A stretch of DNA of 64,000 nt, from assembly GCF_020217425.1 (NCBI RefSeq), contig NZ_CP084090.1, forward strand, positions 1,240,001-1,304,000, written 5' to 3'. Shown piece by piece: positions 8,929 through 58,869 of the stretch. The position numbers and the translations under genes were made by a program. Each line of letters begins with the position of its first letter. Within the stretch, counting starts at the first letter, position 1. The notes beneath the pieces were generated by a model. It was not told the origin of the DNA. It did no database searches and worked only from the letters and a program-made list of their open reading frames with translations. The DNA comes from Halomicrobium urmianum (GTDB lineage: Archaea; Halobacteriota; Halobacteria; Halobacteriales; Haloarculaceae).

Positions 8929-8930
8929 CG

Positions 8931-9092
8931 CGAGATTCCGACCGAAGGGAGGAATCTCGGTTAGAGCGAGCGGGAGTGAGCGGAGCGAACGACACGCGAG
9001 CCGCGACGTTCCGACCGAAGGGAGGAATCTCGGTTAGAGCGAGCGGGAGCACTCGATAGAGCGAGCGGGAGCGCCAGGTCGCGAAGCGACCT
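8931..9092. repeat. Hairpin repeat cluster between convergent oxidoreductase genes
   Basis: CGAGATTCC-GACCGAAGGGA-GGAATCTCG at 8931-8959 is a type II hairpin (9-bp stem, 11-nt loop). A 41-bp stretch including its loop recurs at 9009-9049 (first copy 8936-8976), followed each time by AGCGAGCGGGAG. AGGTCGC-gaa-GCGACCT at 9076-9092 is a type I hairpin. The position between two 3' ends would suit transcript termination. No gene fits in the 8929-9124 gap. Confidence 0.7.
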
Positions 9093-21536: not shown

Positions 21537-21650
21537 GCGCGCGCTCGCGGGACTCACTGCGTTCGTCCCGCGGTGTCCGGCCGGGAATCCCCCGGCGACG
21601 GACGGTGCGGAGCTCCGCTCGCTCGTTTCGGGTGCTCGCTTCGCTCGCAC
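21521..21650. repeat. Hairpin repeat cluster downstream of the acetyltransferase
   Basis: Type II hairpins: CGCGC-GAACGGAGTGA-GCGCG at 21521-21541; CGCGGGAC-TCACTGCGTTC-GTCCCGCG at 21546-21572; and a 4-5 bp stem around TCGCTTCGCTC at 21632-21650. A GC hairpin GCCGGG/CCCGGC lies at 21580-21596. The loops are the same motif in either orientation. The cluster fills most of the gap to the next gene. Confidence 0.7.
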
Positions 21651-21704
21651 ACCTTGCGACGCCAAAGAACTACATTTTTTATCGCCGGTCCCGTTGTGTG
21701 GCAC

Positions 21705-24186: not shown

Positions 24187-26067
24187 TCAATCGCGACCGT
24201 GCTTCGTCAGACAGGTCGCCAGCCCCTGGATCTCGACGGGCTCGGAGTTGTCCGGCGAGTAGACGACCATCTGGCCCTTCTCCATGTAGGGCACCTTCGA
24301 CTCCAGGCTGGCGGGGATGTTCACGGCGGAGATGGCGTCCTCGTCGCCGAGGTTGAGGACGACGGTGGTGTTGATCTGCTTGAAGACGGGGTCGGCGATG
24401 TCCTGGGGGTCCTGCGTGATGAGAAAGAGTCCGAGGCGCTCCTTGCGGCCCTGCTTGGCGGCCTCGGTGAACTTGCCGATGACCTTGCGGGCCTGGACGC
24501 TGTCGGCGTCGGTGAGGAAGTTGTGGGCCTCGTCCATCCCGAGGATCAGCGGCGTCTCCTTGATGCGGTCGAACCGCGGGCTGTTCGAGAGCTTCTGGTC
24601 GACGAGCATCGACGCCAGCGCGAGCACGATCGTCGTCTTCGACCGGGAGTCGTTCAGGTGGTAGGTCGGGACGACGCTGATGCCGTTCGGGCGGACGAAC
24701 TGCTTGACGAGGTCCGTGATGGGCCGGGCGTCCTGGTCGAAGACGCCGTCGAAGCCGTAGGCGCGCCGCTTGACGGCGTCGAAGGTGGCCTCGTGGACGC
24801 GCCCGGACTCGTCGAGTTCCTCCTTCAGCGCCGGGTCGTCGAGGAACGTAGTGAAGTCGTCGTAGGTGCCGGTCGATCCGAACTCCCTGCGGAACCGATC
24901 AAGCAGGTACTGCAGCGCGTTGTACTGGTTGTCGTTGAGTTGGCTGCCGGCGATCAGCCAGGGGTTGCGGTACACCATCGAGAAGGGAATGGTGAACTCC
25001 ACCTGCTCGGCGCGGTGGTGCGAGGCGGCGTAGCTGGCGTCGTCGACCTTCGGGACGAAGCAGGTGGTGTCCTCGTGGCCGCCGCAGGCGACGCCTTCGC
25101 GCTCGCAGCGCCGGCGGAACTCCTCGGACAGCTCGCCGTCGTCGTGCATCTGGGCGTACTCGTCCTGCGGGTCGAACATCACCAGACAGGGCCCGACTTC
25201 GCGGTCCGTGCCCTCGATGGGGTAGGTGCGGTCCGCGGCGAGGAACTGCCGGAGGATGTTCTTCGAGCCGTGGGTCTTCCCCGACCCCGTCCCGCCGGCG
25301 ACGAGCGTATGCCGGAAGACGAGCGGGTCGCCGTCGCTGTAGTCGTCCGTCAGGCGGTAGTCGATGGTCGGCGGCTCCGCGGCGGTCCTGACCTTCTCGC
25401 CGCCGACTGAGAGATGGCCCAGGAACACGCCGTCCTCGGGAATCTTGAGGCCGGTCTTGATCTCGGCCTTGTCCGTGGCCTGCCGGACGACGGTCTCGGG
25501 CTTGGGCACGCGGTCGGTCATCCGTCGCTTGAGGTCGCCGCCTGCTCGCGGCTCGTCGCCGCTCGCACTGTCCGAGGCGCGTGGCGCCTCGCCTTCCTCG
25601 TAGAGGACGGCTATCGGCTCCAGTTCGGCCATGAACTTGAAGTCCTGCTCGTCGATGCCGTTCGATCGCATCGCGCGGCGGGCGTGGATCTCGGTCGCGT
25701 CGTCGGCGCGGAACTCCTGGGCGTACTCCAGGCCCGCGATGCGGCAGAACAGCCGCTCGCCGTCGGGATAGGGGACGAGCAGGTACTTGCCGATCCGGAT
25801 GTCCGAGCGGTTGCCCACCGTCACGTAGGCTCGCAGGCAGGTCTCCCGCTCGTCCTCGTGGATGGTCAGCCCCTCCGAGGCGGAGAGGACGCCGACGCCG
25901 CGGTCCCGGCCCGCCGGCTCGACGGACATCTCCTCGAAGGGGTCCGCCTCGTCGGACTCGCGCGCGGCCGCGCCGGTCCCGTCCGACGCGGCCGTCGCGT
26001 CGTCGCTCTCGTCGCCGCCGTCGCCGTCGTCTGGTTCGAAGTCGGTGAAGTCCCCGAGGTCGGACAT
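24187..26067 (-). CDS. HerA-like ATPase (DUF87/FtsK-HerA superfamily)
   Basis: 626 aa. An acidic disordered N-terminus (1-60) leads to a HAS-barrel-like region (~60-155), then a P-loop GGTGSGKT at 258-265, CLVMFDPQDEYAQ, Walker B LILGMDEAHNFL and ITQDPQDIADPVF. HerA is the hexameric translocase that works with the nuclease NurA in archaeal end resection. A nurA gene lies three genes away (27471) in the same direction, supporting that role, though haloarchaea also have other HerA-like ATPases. Residues ~158-178 (EGEAPRASDSASGDEPRAGG) are a low-complexity insert containing a type I hairpin at the DNA level. Confidence 0.85.
   Translation of the reverse strand: MSDLGDFTDFEPDDGDGGDESDDATAASDGTGAAARESDEADPFEEMSVEPAGRDRGVGVLSASEGLTIHEDERETCLRAYVTVGNRSDIRIGKYLLVPYPDGERLFCRIAGLEYAQEFRADDATEIHARRAMRSNGIDEQDFKFMAELEPIAVLYEEGEAPRASDSASGDEPRAGGDLKRRMTDRVPKPETVVRQATDKAEIKTGLKIPEDGVFLGHLSVGGEKVRTAAEPPTIDYRLTDDYSDGDPLVFRHTLVAGGTGSGKTHGSKNILRQFLAADRTYPIEGTDREVGPCLVMFDPQDEYAQMHDDGELSEEFRRRCEREGVACGGHEDTTCFVPKVDDASYAASHHRAEQVEFTIPFSMVYRNPWLIAGSQLNDNQYNALQYLLDRFRREFGSTGTYDDFTTFLDDPALKEELDESGRVHEATFDAVKRRAYGFDGVFDQDARPITDLVKQFVRPNGISVVPTYHLNDSRSKTTIVLALASMLVDQKLSNSPRFDRIKETPLILGMDEAHNFLTDADSVQARKVIGKFTEAAKQGRKERLGLFLITQDPQDIADPVFKQINTTVVLNLGDEDAISAVNIPASLESKVPYMEKGQMVVYSPDNSEPVEIQGLATCLTKHGRD
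25573..25591. repeat. Type I hairpin inside the HerA-like gene
   Basis: CGAGGCGC-gtg-GCGCCTCG: 8-bp perfect stem, 3-nt loop, in frame, encoding GEAPRAS (residues 159-165). Confidence 0.7.
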
Positions 26068-28788: not shown

Positions 28789-28861
28789 TTAGGGCGAGCG
28801 GGAGCGACCGCAGGGAGGCCTCGAAAATGCGAGCGCCGAAAGCTACGAGCCCCGAGTGCCG

Positions 28862-29403: not shown

Positions 29404-30963
29404 ATGAAGGCTGCGCTCGTCATCCTGGACGGCTGGGGGCTCAACCCCGACGAGGGCGTCCGCGACGCGGTCGCCGCGGCGGACACCCCGAACTTCGACG
29501 ACTACTGGGAGCGGGGTGCGACGAGCACCCTGGTGACCCACGGCCGCCGGGTGGGCCTCCCGGAGGGACAGATGGGAAACTCCGAAGTCGGTCACCTCAA
29601 CATCGGCGCCGGCCGCGTGGTCAAGCAGGATTCCGCGCGCGTGTCCGACAGCATCGCCCGCTCGCGCGGCGAGTCGCCGCCGGACGAGGGCGCGCAGGAC
29701 CCGCCGTTCTTCGAGAACGAGCGGCTGCTCTCCGCGTTCGAGTACGCCGAGGAGCACGACGGCCGCGTCCACTTCATGGGGCTGGTCTCCGACGGCGGCG
29801 TCCACTCCTACCAGGACCACCTCCACGCGCTGATCGAACTGGCCGGCCAGCGCGGGACCGACGCGGTCACCCACGCGTTCACGGACGGCCGGGACACCTC
29901 GCCGACCGGCGGCGAGGGCTACCTCGCCGACCTGCAGGCCCACGTCGAGGAGCACGGCACCGGCGACGTCGCCACCGTCGTCGGCCGCTACTACGCGATG
30001 GACCGCGACCAGAACTGGGAGCGCACCCGGCGGGCCTACGACGCCATCGTCGACCGGGCGGCCGACTACCGCGTCGACGACGCCGTCGAGGCGGTCCGCG
30101 GGTCCTACGACCGCGGTGACACCGACGAGTTCGTCGAGCCGACGCTGGTCGGCGATCACACCGACATGGCGGACGGCGACGCGGTGGTGTTCTTCAACTT
30201 CCGGGCCGACCGCGCCCGCCAGCTGACCCGCATGCTCGCGGACATTCGCCCGGAGGACTGGGGCGCCGACACCGAGCCGCCGGAGATCCGGACGGTCACG
30301 ATGACCCAGTACGACCGGACCTTCGACGTGGGCGTCGCCTTCCCGCCGAACCAGCCCGAGGACGTGCTGGGCGAGGTGCTGGCCGACGAGGGGCTCACTC
30401 AGCTCCGCCTCGCCGAGAGCGAGAAGTACCCCCACGTCACCTACTTCCTCAACGGCGGCCGCGAGGTGGAGTTCGACGGCGAGCGCCGCCGCATCATCCA
30501 GAGCCCGGACGTCGGGACGTACGACCAGGCCCCGGCGATGAGCGCCCGCAAAGTGACCAACACCGCCGTCGAGATCATCGAGGAGGACGACCCGGACGCG
30601 CTCGTGCTCAACTACGCGAACCCCGACATGGTCGGGCACACTGGCGACTTCGCGGCCGCGGTCCAGGCCGTCGAGGCCGTCGACACCCAGCTCGGCCGGC
30701 TCGTCGACGCCGTGACGAAGGCCGGCGGGCACGTCCTGCTCTGCGCCGACCACGGCAACGCCGACGACATGGGCACCGAGGACGACCCTCACACCGCCCA
30801 CACGACCAACCCCGTCCCCTTCGTCTACCTCGCGTCCGACGGGACCGACGGCGGCCTGACCGCCCGCGACGGCGGGACGCTGGCCGACCTCGCCCCGACG
30901 ATGCTGGACCTGATCGGCGTCGAGCAGCCGGACGCGATGACCGGCGAGCCGCTAGTCGAGTAG
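29404..30963 (+). CDS. gpmI: 2,3-bisphosphoglycerate-independent phosphoglycerate mutase
   Basis: 519 aa, the usual size for the bacterial-type dimanganese enzyme. MKAALVILDGWG is the first metal motif, GQMGNSEVGHLNIGAGR holds the catalytic Ser60, and FTDGRDTSP, FNFRADRARQ and CADHGNADDM with H near TAHTTNPVPF complete the alkaline-phosphatase-fold site. It interconverts 3- and 2-phosphoglycerate in glycolysis and gluconeogenesis. The 3' end overlaps the convergent kptA gene by 12 bp. An ATG further upstream is less likely because MKAALVILDGWG is the conserved N-terminus. Confidence 0.95.
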   Translation: MKAALVILDGWGLNPDEGVRDAVAAADTPNFDDYWERGATSTLVTHGRRVGLPEGQMGNSEVGHLNIGAGRVVKQDSARVSDSIARSRGESPPDEGAQDPPFFENERLLSAFEYAEEHDGRVHFMGLVSDGGVHSYQDHLHALIELAGQRGTDAVTHAFTDGRDTSPTGGEGYLADLQAHVEEHGTGDVATVVGRYYAMDRDQNWERTRRAYDAIVDRAADYRVDDAVEAVRGSYDRGDTDEFVEPTLVGDHTDMADGDAVVFFNFRADRARQLTRMLADIRPEDWGADTEPPEIRTVTMTQYDRTFDVGVAFPPNQPEDVLGEVLADEGLTQLRLAESEKYPHVTYFLNGGREVEFDGERRRIIQSPDVGTYDQAPAMSARKVTNTAVEIIEEDDPDALVLNYANPDMVGHTGDFAAAVQAVEAVDTQLGRLVDAVTKAGGHVLLCADHGNADDMGTEDDPHTAHTTNPVPFVYLASDGTDGGLTARDGGTLADLAPTMLDLIGVEQPDAMTGEPLVE

Positions 30964-33296: not shown

Positions 33297-34931
33297 TCAG
33301 TCGGCCGTCGTCTCCGCCGCGTCCACGAGGTTGTGCGTGCCGACGGACTCGCCGTTCTCCGACGCGGCGCGGGCGACGAGCAGCGCGGTGACGCTCGCGT
33401 TCCGGAGCTCGTACAGCGACCGCGAGGTGCGCGTGCGGACGTAGGCGTCGACCTCGCCTTTCAGCCGCCGGAGGACGCCCTGGGCGCGCGCGAGGTCCTC
33501 CGGGTCGCGCCGCAGGCCGACGTACTCGTCCATCACCCGGCGCAGGCGGACGAACTTCTCGCGCGCGAAGTTGTCGGGCAGGTCCGGGTCGCGGTTCAGC
33601 AGGTCCGGCGACTCGACGACTTCGGGGTTTCGGCCGGCGGCGTCCTCCCCGGCCCGCAGCCCCCACACGAGCCCCTCCAGCAGGGACGTCGAGGCCAGTC
33701 GGTTGGCGCCGTGGACGCCGGTCCGCGAGCACTCGCCGACGGCGTAGAGGCGGTCCAGCGAGGCCCGGCCGCGGTCGTCGACGGCGACGCCGCCGCAGAG
33801 GAAGTGCTCCGCGGGCGCGACCGGGATGCCGGACTCCCAGTCGACGCCCCGCTCCTCGCACTTCGCCGCGAGGTCGGGGAACTCGTCGGCGAAGTCAAGC
33901 GGCGAGACACCGGAAGAGCGGAGCTCTTCCGAGCGTCGTCTCGCTTCGCTCGACGACACGTCCAGCACTACCTCGCCGGTGGCCTCGCGCTGCTCCTGGA
34001 CGGCCCGCGCGACCACGTCGCGGGGCGCCAGTTCGGCGTCCTCGTGGTAGTCGGGCATGAACCGCTCGCCACCGGGAGACTGCGTCTCCCGAGCCCCCGA
34101 GCCGCCGGGCTCGGAGACCTCGCCGTTCCGGAGGAGGGCGCCCTCGCCGCGGACGGCCTCGCTGACGAGGAACGGGCCCCCGTCACAGTCGGCCGCCTCG
34201 TCGCGCCCTGGATAGACGGTCGGGTGGAACTGCACGTACTCCATGTCCGCGACGTCGGCCCCGGCGAGCGCGGCCATCGCGACGCCGTCCCCGGTCGAGC
34301 CGTCGGGGTTGGTCGAGCGCGGGTAGCAGTCACCGATGCCGCCCGTCGCGAGGACGGTCGCGCCGGCGTAGGTCGGCGTCACCGCGCCGTCGCGCTCCAG
34401 CAGCGCGCCGTGGACTCTGCCCTCGTGGGTGATCAGGTCCAGCGCGGCCGTGTCGTCCCGGATCTCGACGCCCTCGTGGTCGTCGAGGTAGGTCAGGAAC
34501 GGGACGTGAATGTGCTTGCCCGTCGAGGCGTCGACGTGGAGGATGCGCGCCTCGTCGTGGGCGGCCTCGCGGCCGAAGTCCCACTCGCCGTCGCCCTCGG
34601 TGTCGAACTCCACGCCCAGCGTGTCGACGATGACGTCCCGCACGGCGTCATTGGCGTTCTCGACGAGCACGTCGACGGCGTCGGGGTCCGCGGTGTCGTC
34701 GGAGGCCGTCAGGATGTCGCGCTTGAACTGCTCGGGGTCGTCCCGGGCGACGGCGATGCCGCCCTGGGCCCACCACGAAGACGCGCCCGCCGGGCGAGTG
34801 GCCTTCGTGGCGACGGTGACGTCGTCGCCCTCACGCGCGGCGGCGAGTGCGGCCGCACACCCGGCGATGCCGGAACCCACGACGAGGACGTCCGTCTCCC
34901 GGTAGTCGTCGTAGTCCGCTGGTTCAGTCAT
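33297..34931 (-). CDS. nadB: L-aspartate oxidase, carrying two repeat-derived inserts
   Basis: 544 aa. VLVVGSGIAGCAAALAA binds FAD; SSWWAQGGIA, HVDASTGKHI, GERFMPDYHEDAEL and GVHGANRLASTSLLEGLV are succinate dehydrogenase/NadB family motifs. It oxidises aspartate to iminoaspartate for NadA. Two low-complexity stretches interrupt conserved segments: residues ~273-287 just before GERFMPDYHED (encoded by 34073-34114) and ~325-341 within the segment after VVLDV (encoded by 33911-33957). Both contain hairpin repeats and keep the frame. It is two bases from nadA. Confidence 0.95.
   Translation of the reverse strand: MTEPADYDDYRETDVLVVGSGIAGCAAALAAAREGDDVTVATKATRPAGASSWWAQGGIAVARDDPEQFKRDILTASDDTADPDAVDVLVENANDAVRDVIVDTLGVEFDTEGDGEWDFGREAAHDEARILHVDASTGKHIHVPFLTYLDDHEGVEIRDDTAALDLITHEGRVHGALLERDGAVTPTYAGATVLATGGIGDCYPRSTNPDGSTGDGVAMAALAGADVADMEYVQFHPTVYPGRDEAADCDGGPFLVSEAVRGEGALLRNGEVSEPGGSGARETQSPGGERFMPDYHEDAELAPRDVVARAVQEQREATGEVVLDVSSSEARRRSEELRSSGVSPLDFADEFPDLAAKCEERGVDWESGIPVAPAEHFLCGGVAVDDRGRASLDRLYAVGECSRTGVHGANRLASTSLLEGLVWGLRAGEDAAGRNPEVVESPDLLNRDPDLPDNFAREKFVRLRRVMDEYVGLRRDPEDLARAQGVLRRLKGEVDAYVRTRTSRSLYELRNASVTALLVARAASENGESVGTHNLVDAAETTAD
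33911..33957. repeat. Type I plus type II hairpin inside nadB
   Basis: CGGAAGAGC-gga-GCTCTTCCG at 33911-33931, then GTCGTC-TCGCTTCGCTC-GACGAC at 33935-33957. The second has the 11-nt type II loop (complement GAGCGAAGCGA). In frame; encodes residues ~325-341. Confidence 0.7.
34073..34114. repeat. Hairpin pair inside nadB (second site)
   Basis: CGGGAGAC-tgc-GTCTCCCG at 34073-34091 (8-bp stem, 3-nt loop) and CCGAGCC-gccg-GGCTCGG at 34097-34114 (7-bp stem). In frame; encodes the insert before GERFMPDYHED. Confidence 0.7.
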
Positions 34932-36134: not shown

Positions 36135-36304
36135 TAGGGCCCTGTGGTGGAGAGGAGGGTGTCTGTCGGGACGGTTGGTCGTCACTGTTTTGTGATACTG
36201 CTTGTCATGGGTCGCCGTACGACCGGAGCGGCGTCCTGTCGCGTCAGTTGCACCGGGCGATTCGGGCGGTGCGCCGACCGGTTCCCGCCGATCGCCTCCC
36301 GAGA

Positions 36305-36484
36305 CCGCGCTCACTTCGTTCGCGCGGACGCCGGAGGACGGACGGAGTGAGTCCTCCGAGCCCAGCCTCGTGATTCGAGAGACCGAAGGTCTCTCGTCAT
36401 CTGCTCACGGGCGCGAAGCGCCCGTTCGCACGGTTCGCGGGACGGAGTCCCGCGCTCATCACGAGAGGCGCGATGCGCCTCTCG
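36305..36484. repeat. Hairpin array before hmgA: two type II and four type I copies
   Basis: Type II: CCGCGC-TCACTTCGTTC-GCGCGG at 36305-36327 and CGGAGGAC-GGACGGAGTGA-GTCCTCCG at 36332-36358. Type I: CGAGAGACC-gaa-GGTCTCTCG at 36376-36396; ACGGGCGC-gaa-GCGCCCGT at 36407-36425; GCGGGAC-gga-GTCCCGC at 36437-36453; CGAGAGGCGC-gat-GCGCCTCTCG at 36462-36484. All stems are perfect. Confidence 0.8.
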
Positions 36485-37975: not shown

Positions 37976-38233
37976 ATGCGCTCTCCGCATCAGTCCTCCG
38001 ACCGGACGGTACAGCACGTAGCGCCCGAGGCCGACCGCAGGGAGGCCTCGGGACGGGCGAGCGGGAGTGAGCGAAGCGAACGGCACGCGAGCCCCGCGGA
38101 CGAGTCGTCGGACTGCGACGACGCTCCGTCGGACCGGCTGGCCCTCGCCCGCCGACTGCTGAGAGTGGCGAAACTGCTGGCGACCACGCTCGCGGCGCTC
38201 GTCGGCGTCGCGAGGACGCTGGGCCTCCTGTGA
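37976..38233 (+). CDS. Doubtful 85-aa small protein with a C-terminal hydrophobic segment
   Basis: It begins MRSPHQSSDRTVQHVAPEAD. The middle (EASGRASGSERSERHASP) is simply the translation of a type II hairpin and its tail at 38024-38090. The C-terminal ~30 residues (RLALARRLLRVAKLLATTLA) could form an amphipathic or membrane helix. I know no homologue. Either it is a real small membrane protein that has absorbed a repeat, or a chance frame. Confidence 0.3.
   Translation: MRSPHQSSDRTVQHVAPEADRREASGRASGSERSERHASPADESSDCDDAPSDRLALARRLLRVAKLLATTLAALVGVARTLGLL
38024..38052. repeat. Type II hairpin with conserved tail
   Basis: CCCGAGGCC-GACCGCAGGGA-GGCCTCGGG: 9-bp stem, 11-nt loop. It is followed by GCGAGCGGGAGTGAGCGAAG, nearly identical to the tail at 8967-8990. 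Confidence 0.75.
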
Positions 38234-39227: not shown

Positions 39228-39660
39228 GTCACGTATCCCTACCTCTGCCGGGCTGTTCACCCTTTCGTCCCAGGGGTTACAGACCGCGGCAGATCCTGGC
39301 ATAGCGGCGTGAACAACCAGAAAGCCCCCGTCCGCTCGATGGCTGCGACTCGCTGCGGTCCTCACTTCGTTGTCGTTCGAAAGACGCCAGCGGCGTCTTT
39401 CGTGATCGCGAGAGAGTCGTCCGAAAGAGCGCCCAGCGCTCTTTCGTGATCGCGAGAGATCGAAGCTCTCTCGGACGACTTCGCTCTCTCGAACGACGGT
39501 CCTTGCGTCGCCTCGCTCATCGAGCGGACGGCCCCTTTCAGTCCCGCCCGATGCCGGCTGGCCAACCGACTACGGGCGGGACTTTCTGGTTGTTCGCAGT
39601 TGTAGCGGTTGTCCCGGGGCTCGCACAATCCCTTAGTCACGCCGTTACGTCACCAGTGCC
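39228..39660. other. 433-bp gap filled by a MITE-like hairpin element
   Basis: Apart from the short promoters of the flanking divergent genes, the gap is the element at 39311-39595. No gene is visible. Confidence 0.6.
39311..39595. mobile_element. MITE-like element with inverted ends and internal hairpins
   Basis: GAACAACCAGAAAG at 39311-39324 is repeated exactly inverted at 39582-39595, bounding 285 bp. Inside are CGAAAGACGCC-agc-GGCGTCTTTCG (39378-39402), CGAAAGAGCGC-cca-GCGCTCTTTCG (39422-39446) and CGAGAGATC-gaa-GCTCTCTCG (39453-39473, one mismatch). The spacer TGATCGCGAGAGA follows each of the first two. There is no coding capacity. A shorter relative with similar ends lies at 58653-58843. 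Confidence 0.6.
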
Positions 39661-55067: not shown

Positions 55068-55838
55068 ATGGCCAAGCAGCCACACCTCCTGGTCGAACCG
55101 GGCGATCTGACCGATCTCGCGCTCGTTCCGGGCGATCCCGACCGCGTCGATCGGATCGCGGGCCTCTGTGACGACAGCGAGACGGTCGCCGAGAACCGGG
55201 AGTACAAGGTCGTCAACGCCACCTACGAGGGGCGCGAGCTGACGATCTGTTCGACGGGCATCGGCGCGCCCTCGGCGGCTATCGCCGTCGAGGAACTCGC
55301 CGCGGTCGGCGTGGAGACGTTCGTCCGCGTCGGCACGACGGGCGCCCTGCAGGAGGGCATCGAGATCGGCGACATGGTGGTCGCCACCGCTGCCGCCAAG
55401 GACGAGGGCACCACGAAGCGCTACGAGGCCGCCGAGTACCCCGCCGTCGCCGACTACGAGGTGCTCTCGGCGCTCGTGGACTCGGCGGAACGTGCGGCCC
55501 AGGGGGCCGCAGACGGAGCGAGCGGCGACGCCGCGAGCAGCCGAGAGAACGTCCACGTCGGCCCCGTCGCCACGGACGACGCCTTCTACGCCGAGGACGA
55601 GGCCTACTTCGAGGACCGCGAGGCCGCCGGCCTGCTGGCCGTCGAGATGGAGGCCGCGGCCGTCTTCTCGCTGGCCCGCCGGAAGGGCCTGCGCGCCGGC
55701 GCCATCTGTACCGTCGACGGCAACCTCGTCGAGGGCACCCAGAAGGGCGAGACGGAGGACGAAGAGCTCCCGGAGAAGGCGAAGAACAACGTCGAGCGCG
55801 CGATCCAGCTGACGCTGGACGCGACGACGGCGCTGTAG
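55068..55838 (+). CDS. Uridine phosphorylase-like nucleoside phosphorylase
   Basis: 256 aa. LALVPGDPDRVDRIA (phosphate Arg), ICSTGIGAPSAAIAVEEL, FVRVGTTGALQ, LLAVEMEAAAVFSLA (ribose-binding Met-Glu) are the NP-I family motifs. It phosphorolyses uridine or a related nucleoside. Residues ~140-160 (RAAQGAADGASGDAASSRE) are a low-complexity insert between a helix and VHVGPVATDD, containing a type I hairpin in the DNA. With deoC nearby this suggests a nucleoside salvage neighbourhood. Confidence 0.9.
   Translation: MAKQPHLLVEPGDLTDLALVPGDPDRVDRIAGLCDDSETVAENREYKVVNATYEGRELTICSTGIGAPSAAIAVEELAAVGVETFVRVGTTGALQEGIEIGDMVVATAAAKDEGTTKRYEAAEYPAVADYEVLSALVDSAERAAQGAADGASGDAASSRENVHVGPVATDDAFYAEDEAYFEDREAAGLLAVEMEAAAVFSLARRKGLRAGAICTVDGNLVEGTQKGETEDEELPEKAKNNVERAIQLTLDATTAL
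55493..55511. repeat. Type I hairpin inside the nucleoside phosphorylase gene
   Basis: TGCGGCCC-agg-GGGCCGCA: 8-bp perfect stem, 3-nt loop, in frame, within residues 142-148. It is followed by GACGGAGCGAGCGGCGA, a degenerate type II-like tail. Confidence 0.65.
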
Positions 55839-58565: not shown

Positions 58566-58869
58566 GCACGCCGGCAGGCGATACTCCGAGTAAAACTTGG
58601 CGTCTCGGCTAGGGGATGTAACTGGTGCCAACAGGACGACTGTCGTTACTGTGAACGACCAGAAAGCCCCTGCTGTCGTCGGGCGCTTCACGCCCGACTG
58701 CTCGGGAGACCTCCGGTCTCCCGGTGGCTGAACTCGGGGGGCTCGCTGCGCTCCTCACTACGTTGCGGTGCTTACATCGCCCGCCGTCCTCAGAAGCGCG
58801 AAGCGAGTCGCAGCCCGTGAGCGAGCGGGGCTTTCCGGTTCTCCTCGATGGCTGCAACGACGTTCCTTT
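58566..58869. other. 304-bp gap occupied by a hairpin element
   Basis: Mostly the element at 58653-58843; the left ~80 bp would hold the channel gene promoter. No gene seen. Confidence 0.55.
58653..58843. mobile_element. MITE-like hairpin element, relative of 39311-39595
   Basis: GAACGACCAGAAAGCCCC at 58653-58670 is matched inverted by GGGGCTTTCCGGTT at 58827-58840 (one mismatch over ACC.GAAAGCCCC). Inside are GTCGGGCG-cttca-CGCCCGAC (58678-58698) and CGGGAGACC-tcc-GGTCTCCCG (58703-58723). The outer end CTCGATGGCTGC also occurs inside the 39311 element. Confidence 0.5.

Follow-up and report, generated by a model that had tools for sequence, protein, structure and literature searches.

Two in-frame hairpin inserts in a haloarchaeal nadB gene as probable copies of palindromic DNA elements

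REP/BIME-RAYT systems, with their Y1 transposase, consist of short palindromes in pairs, scattered over the genome, and the REPs themselves are extragenic. Mobile tandem hairpins also occur in fungal mitochondria as double-hairpin and byp elements; the byps lie within genes, where translation passes over them, and need not keep the reading frame. Palindromes that do reside in frame are described in Rickettsia, where the Rickettsia palindromic elements (RPEs; Ogata et al. 2000/2002) are ~150 bp long and occupy unrelated housekeeping genes in which unstructured segments tolerate them, as described in PMC10969869 and PMC2996958. Coding palindromes have also been reported in Wolbachia and in the archaeon Methanocaldococcus jannaschii (refs 49 and 50 of PMC2996958). 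A further class, the PARCEL repeats, is palindromic and coding, forms amphipathic tandem arrays, is associated with membrane proteins and was reported to be absent from archaeal genomes (PMC2996958). Coding palindromes have thus far been a curiosity of the intracellular Rickettsiales and one methanogen.

Here we describe two in-frame inserts in nadB of Halomicrobium urmianum, within a 64,000-nucleotide stretch of DNA (hereafter the window), and their relatives across Halobacteria. Like the RPEs, the haloarchaeal repeats are palindromic, sit in frame in unrelated conserved genes and have empty sites in orthologues. Unlike them, they are 48-54 bp long, GC-rich and built of two small tandem hairpins, with hypervariable stems and one codon that is reused, and we do not claim them as members of the RPE sequence family, from which they differ in length, composition and host lineage. 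The first-pass annotation had named Rickettsia as the precedent, which is apt but incomplete, as the Wolbachia and M. jannaschii palindromes cited in PMC2996958 are by description the same phenomenon; the latter are archaeal, although the lineage differs from Halobacteria. The repeats resemble PARCEL in being palindromic and coding, with tandem arrays. They differ from the REP/RAYT system in that many copies lie in genes and that no Y1_Tnp domain is found in four copy-bearing genomes (G008, G027, G030 and G039), and from byps in that the inserts are in frame. Target preference and stem hypervariability are new relative to the known coding palindromes. The best explanation by analogy is that these would be haloarchaeal protein-coding palindromic elements comparable to the RPEs, their retention in the mature protein being inferred. 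As the first-pass annotation had supposed, we found no earlier description for Halobacteria in the literature searched, although most subscription journals lay outside that search. Halobacteria are free-living, culturable and genetically tractable, and, with two or more families, dozens of copies in a genome, a recurrent codon and visible compensatory evolution, they make it testable what moves such elements, how targets are chosen and whether new protein segments arise.

Two double hairpins in nadB

The host gene and its inserts are as follows.

33297..34931, minus strand: nadB, L-aspartate oxidase, 544 aa, intact (ORF; PF00890; matches to PDB 1chu, 1knp and 2e5v; AF2 model)
34071..34118, minus strand: insert 1, 48-nt double hairpin, codons 272-287, VSEPGGSGARETQSPG (missing in most of the 91 NadB proteins of the tree; compensatory stem changes)
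33909..33956, minus strand: insert 2, 48-nt double hairpin, codons 326-341, SSSEARRRSEELRSSG (missing in most NadB; same codon in L054 and, decayed, in L081)

The nadB reading frame in the ORF list contains no internal stop and is flanked by nadA and nadC, one on either side. Alignment with the NadB proteins of relatives sets the boundaries of the inserts, each of 16 residues, and both are missing from the solved structure of the E. coli enzyme. The first-pass annotation had reported two hairpin-encoded in-frame inserts at 34073-34114 and 33911-33957. Both are real and the hairpins were marked correctly, but a few bases of each insert were missed and each proves to be a pair of hairpins and not one. 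Insert 1 folds as CTCCGAGCC..GGCTCGGGG followed by CGGGAGAC-GCA-GTCTCCCG, and insert 2 as GTCGTC-GAGCGAAGCGA-GACGAC followed by CGGAAGAGC-TCC-GCTCTTCCG. Folding is stronger than in 60/60 random windows drawn from nadB itself for insert 1 (z -3.4) and in 59/60 for insert 2 (z -1.8). No Rfam family matched the window or the element loci at gathering score, with the exception of one tRNA.

All NadB motifs are retained despite the two inserts, as had been claimed. An AF2 model of the protein with both inserts, built from 67 natural sequences, keeps the NadB fold (pLDDT 87.7, pTM 0.90) and its best PDB match is E. coli L-aspartate oxidase 1knp (TM 0.84); with only 31 close relatives as input the pLDDT was 58. 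In the model insert 1 is disordered, with pLDDT below 50 over residues 273-286, and insert 2 forms a short extra helix at 328-337 with moderate confidence. The model thus bears out the predicted loop for insert 1, and shows insert 2 as something other than a bare loop. The protein is probably an active enzyme, although activity is inferred without an assay. It would be an ordinary working enzyme that carries two passenger peptides, with the caveat that translation of the inserts lacks experimental proof. Annotators should bear in mind that a low-complexity insert in a loop of a haloarchaeal enzyme can be mobile DNA.

Recurrence of the inserts across Halobacteria

We placed the inserts on a tree of 91 NadB proteins from which the insert columns had been excluded. 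Insert 1 is present in 6/91 proteins and insert 2 in 3/91, confirming the suggestion that they would be patchy among related haloarchaea, and leaving unmet the circumstance that would have refuted it, namely the same residues in most haloarchaeal NadB. The copies lie mostly at the tips of the tree. Insert 1 occupies five separate places (the window; QS_5_68_33; G001 with G003; QH_8_67_36; Natrinema mahii) and insert 2 three (the window; QS_4_69_225; Natronomonas LN261), which require five and three changes, respectively.

A wider search for insert 1, using a 50-mer with up to 3 mismatches against 392 Halobacteria genomes, found it in 12, as a single copy each. All 12 copies lie within genes and in the same frame: nine at the same codon of nadB and one each in an SdhA-type flavoprotein, an aldehyde ferredoxin oxidoreductase (AOR) and a DUF255 protein. 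The nine nadB carriers are spread over two families, f1 and f7, the latter probably Natrialbaceae, judging from the Natrinema carrier. The SdhA copy sits at the codon homologous to the nadB site (..LYNSE|VPESADSGARETTSPGG|ERFMERY..) and is identical to the nadB copy of genome G042 at 47/50 positions, whereas its host protein, a paralogue, shares only 36% identity with the NadB of the window. Near-identity in paralogous hosts rules out vertical descent for this pair of copies; they can be accounted for by insertion, more than once, at a target that both genes have, GGCGAS ahead of GAGCGGTTCATG.

For insert 2, the window and QS_4_69_225 (L054) carry it at the same nadB codon with 47/48 nucleotides identical (97.9%), whereas the remainder of the gene is 77.4% identical; L081 has a decayed copy at that codon, and a 35-mer search matched two nadB genes only. 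To within 60 nt, the flanks of the Natrinema insert-1 copy resemble its Natrinema sisters and not the other carriers, and those of the L054 insert-2 copy likewise track the host gene within 60 nt. Among Haloarculaceae the identity of insert 1 is about that of the gene background, which alone would fit inheritance with loss.

In a comparison of ~100 genes, other NadB proteins have further in-frame inserts at other loops. We found no frame-breaking or stop-containing insert in the ~100 NadB genes examined; one frame is read through. Tandem 54-nt in-frame arrays were also seen inside nadB (L019, L021), with five copies in G007 and three in G002, and suggest whole-codon slippage expansion.

Two families with conserved pairing

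The genome-wide extent of these repeats, their recurrence at the same sites in different genera and the covariation of their stems had all escaped the first-pass annotation. Besides the nadB inserts, the window contains the following features.

25534..25584, minus strand: family-2 double-hairpin in-frame insert in the HerA-like ATPase gene 24187-26067, PRASDSASGDEPRAGGD (gap in the G006 orthologue; CM match 25542-25593; PF01935)
55494..55544, plus strand: family-2 in-frame copy in the PNP/UDP phosphorylase gene 55068-55838, AAQGAADGASGDAASSR (CM match 55491-55545; partial gap in G006; PF01048)
8929..9007, plus strand: family-2 intergenic copy, between predicted genes (CM match, E 3e-7)
28797..28856, plus strand: family-2 intergenic copy (CM match, E 3e-6)
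38024..38080, plus strand: family-2 intergenic copy (CM match, E 1e-6)
21591..21654, minus strand: family-2 intergenic copy, weak (CM match, E 5e-4)
58678..58723, plus strand: intergenic family-1 double hairpin, [hairpin]TGCT[CGGGAGACC-TCC-GGTCTCCCG], of the same plan as the NadB inserts
29656..29694, plus strand: hairpin-bearing in-frame indel, no family assigned, in the iPGM gene 29404-30963, ARSRGESPPDEGA (gap in the G006 orthologue; CGGCGAGTCGCCG stem; PF06415)
36296..36484, no strand assigned: short perfect hairpins, each with a 3-nt loop, arrayed between genes upstream of nadA
39378..39446, no strand assigned: two perfect 11-bp hairpins between genes, each with a 3-nt loop

The array at 36296-36484 holds four or more perfect hairpins; linkers of the TCATCA type connect some of them, and G006 has such linkers between its hairpins as well. 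The comparison with G006 orthologues is limited by little synteny, with 32 pairs only. In 864 kb the general excess of hairpins across the genome is modest and the signal lies in tandem hairpins with 3-nt loops. Among perfect hairpins with stems of at least 8, GNA/TNC loops make up 24/42 of the noncoding ones against a background of ~12%, and 7/44 of the coding ones, without clear enrichment.

Family 1 follows the plan [hairpin 1]-GCT-[CGGRAGA..TCTYCCG], which matched in 28/59 genomes with a single match for the reversed-pattern control. Nearly all of the 77 copies placed in context are intergenic, and relatives of the plan occur between genes on either strand; the in-gene copies are sense, in NadB, aIF2-alpha and a HATPase domain. 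The aIF2-alpha genes of two genera (L152, L168) have a family-1 hairpin insert at an identical site. Hairpin 1 has ~40 different stems in 69 copies, yet is paired in 55/69 against 2/77 when shuffled. Taken letter by letter, GGGAGACNNNGTCTCCC is present at no more than two places in the genome and is no exact dispersed repeat, so it is the structure of the element that is conserved and not its letters.

Family 2 is a 54-nt unit whose peptide is approximately RE-GDRREPSERASGETAS-RE. Its pattern gave 104 matches against ~6 for reversed controls, and its covariance model (CM) R1 found 44 copies in the H. urmianum genome and copies in 46/59 relatives. Within the phylum it was present in 16/19 Halobacteria and 0/101 other genomes, the latter possibly differing in GC content, for which there was no control. 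A first analysis of context gave 13/16 in-gene calls as sense and in one phase, two of the three exceptions resting on weak gene calls. With a caller based on flanks, 32/32 clear in-gene copies were sense and 30/32 in one frame; two of these 30 were counted by eye from their peptides, and orthologous pairs among the copies bring the number of independent cases below 32. As we read the consensus, five of its six frames contain no stop, and the frame bias therefore reflects either the process of insertion or selection acting on the peptide. We infer that the other frames, being basic or hydrophobic, are ill-suited to halophile proteins. The hosts are housekeeping genes: LeuRS, Hef helicase, tryptophan synthase alpha (TrpA), a tryptophanase-like lyase, an ABC transporter, NadB and NadC.

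Two side observations concern the in-gene sites. In nadC, a hot spot after an ARE motif (GCxCGCGAG) holds divergent, mostly hairpin-like inserts in different genera (L006, L038, L041, L085, L097, L109 and L221). Between the G001 and G003 orthologues (L254:340-384, L255:316-378), one hairpin of a family-2 copy has been lost in one.

The stems covary. Across 14 copies of insert 1, 97.7% of cells are paired and six are double-change cells, compared with 1.2 in shuffles, of which 0/500 reached as high. At pair 4/23 a T-A to C-G exchange replaces Ser with Pro and Glu with Gly, and at pair 31/43 a G-C to A-T exchange replaces Glu with Lys and Pro with Ser. Compensating pairs of this kind change both amino acids, which argues that the hairpin and not the peptide is maintained; judged from the nucleotide sequences alone, it is the hairpin that is conserved, with the peptide yielding to the pairing. 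For 18 family-2 copies 90.5% of cells are paired, with 29 double-change cells, and slid controls reach 32-40% paired; these copies were picked by hand, which makes the level of pairing optimistic. Many copies contain GAGCGAAGCGA, and d(GCGAAGC) is treated in published papers as an extraordinarily stable DNA mini-hairpin. We infer that such loops hint at single-stranded DNA as the recognised form.

Origin of the inserts

We favour, with a probability of roughly 0.7, the reading that the inserts are copies of palindromic, probably mobile DNA elements of ~48-54 nt that are spreading through Halobacteria, prefer certain targets and are tolerated in loops. The tandem hairpins, their pairing, their dispersal, their in-frame residence, the recurrent sites and the restriction to one lineage within the genomes searched are all observed. 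Movement itself is inferred from phylogeny, since there is no clean empty and filled pair between near-identical strains; at an intergenic empty site in G003 compared with G001 the downstream flank was unmatched. Tolerance of the inserts by their hosts is likewise inferred.

A similar pattern, without any present mobility, could be left by old insertions that were passed on vertically and disappeared on many occasions, perhaps through slippage between the repeats at their flanks. Short direct repeats do flank the inserts, the Haloarculaceae copies of insert 1 are about as diverged as nadB, and partial hairpin loss is seen between close genomes (L254 against L255). We nevertheless regard this as unlikely, though not negligible, as insert 2 is far more alike than its gene in the window and L054, insert 1 recurs in two unrelated genes and, in a paralogue, at the codon that corresponds to the nadB site, and the copies are concentrated at tree tips. 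Near-identical sequence at the same codon in distant hosts might instead reflect micro gene conversion or nadB segments passed between haloarchaea, which do recombine across species. Quite a low likelihood attaches to this explanation, given the host-type flanks of the Natrinema and L054 copies within 60 nt and the ectopic conversion that the SdhA, AOR and DUF255 copies would require.

The conservation of pairing against the peptide would also be expected if the hairpins were kept for a function in the nadB mRNA, such as regulation, stability or translation pausing. However, the majority of nadB genes have no hairpins, the same hairpin is found in unrelated genes and intergenic relatives lie on either strand, making such a role very improbable. 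That the inserts go untranslated, through archaeal intron splicing or ribosome bypass as with the mitochondrial byp elements or T4 gene 60, is barely tenable: ~50-nt hairpin inserts with flanking repeats do resemble byps, but one frame is preferred and the ~100 NadB genes gave no out-of-frame or stop-containing insert. Some other NadB loop inserts fold no better than random windows, and for those ordinary low-complexity loop expansion, palindromic by accident in GC-rich DNA, has some support. For inserts 1 and 2 it is hardly credible and is already contradicted by the covariation, by the same 48-50-mer at fixed codons and by intergenic relatives with the same plan.

If the elements are mobile, an enzyme or a replication-linked process would recognise the hairpin, probably as single-stranded DNA, and not a sequence; such recognition is an inference. 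Copies would enter at short sequences preferred as targets, namely GGCGAS ahead of ERFM in nadB and sdhA and CGCGAG for family 2, and most in-gene insertions would be lost, the survivors being in frame and stop-free and adding a hydrophilic, flexible peptide at a loop. A more specific proposal, which we make only tentatively, is of a homing-like palindromic element whose mover reads the shape of the hairpin, prefers codons such as the ERFM motif of nadB/sdhA and adds in-frame peptides to essential archaeal proteins. The shape in question is that of hairpins in tandem, which frequently have GNA-type triloops and GA/GA mismatches, features characteristic of highly stable single-stranded DNA. The short direct repeats at the flanks, GGCGA and CGCGAG, are partly native codons, and target duplication is suggested by them but not proven.

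No transposase or other mover for the elements was identified. A Y1 transposase was considered and rejected, as its presence does not correlate with copy number and it is absent from several copy-rich genomes; G000 has five, and the copy-bearing G008, G027, G030 and G039 have none. Phages gave no match to the elements, and among plasmids the hairpin had two partial matches, both short, on haloarchaeal ones. Compared with a MITE, the short flanking repeats are partly native, and in one genome family-1 hairpins lie inside a longer MITE-like repeat. This genome, G041 (L190-L200), has 38 family-1 hairpins, and the copies that were read sit in a longer intergenic repeat starting GTGTTCAG, which contains several hairpin modules, is apparently MITE-like and is often found ~140 bp from a divergent gene start.
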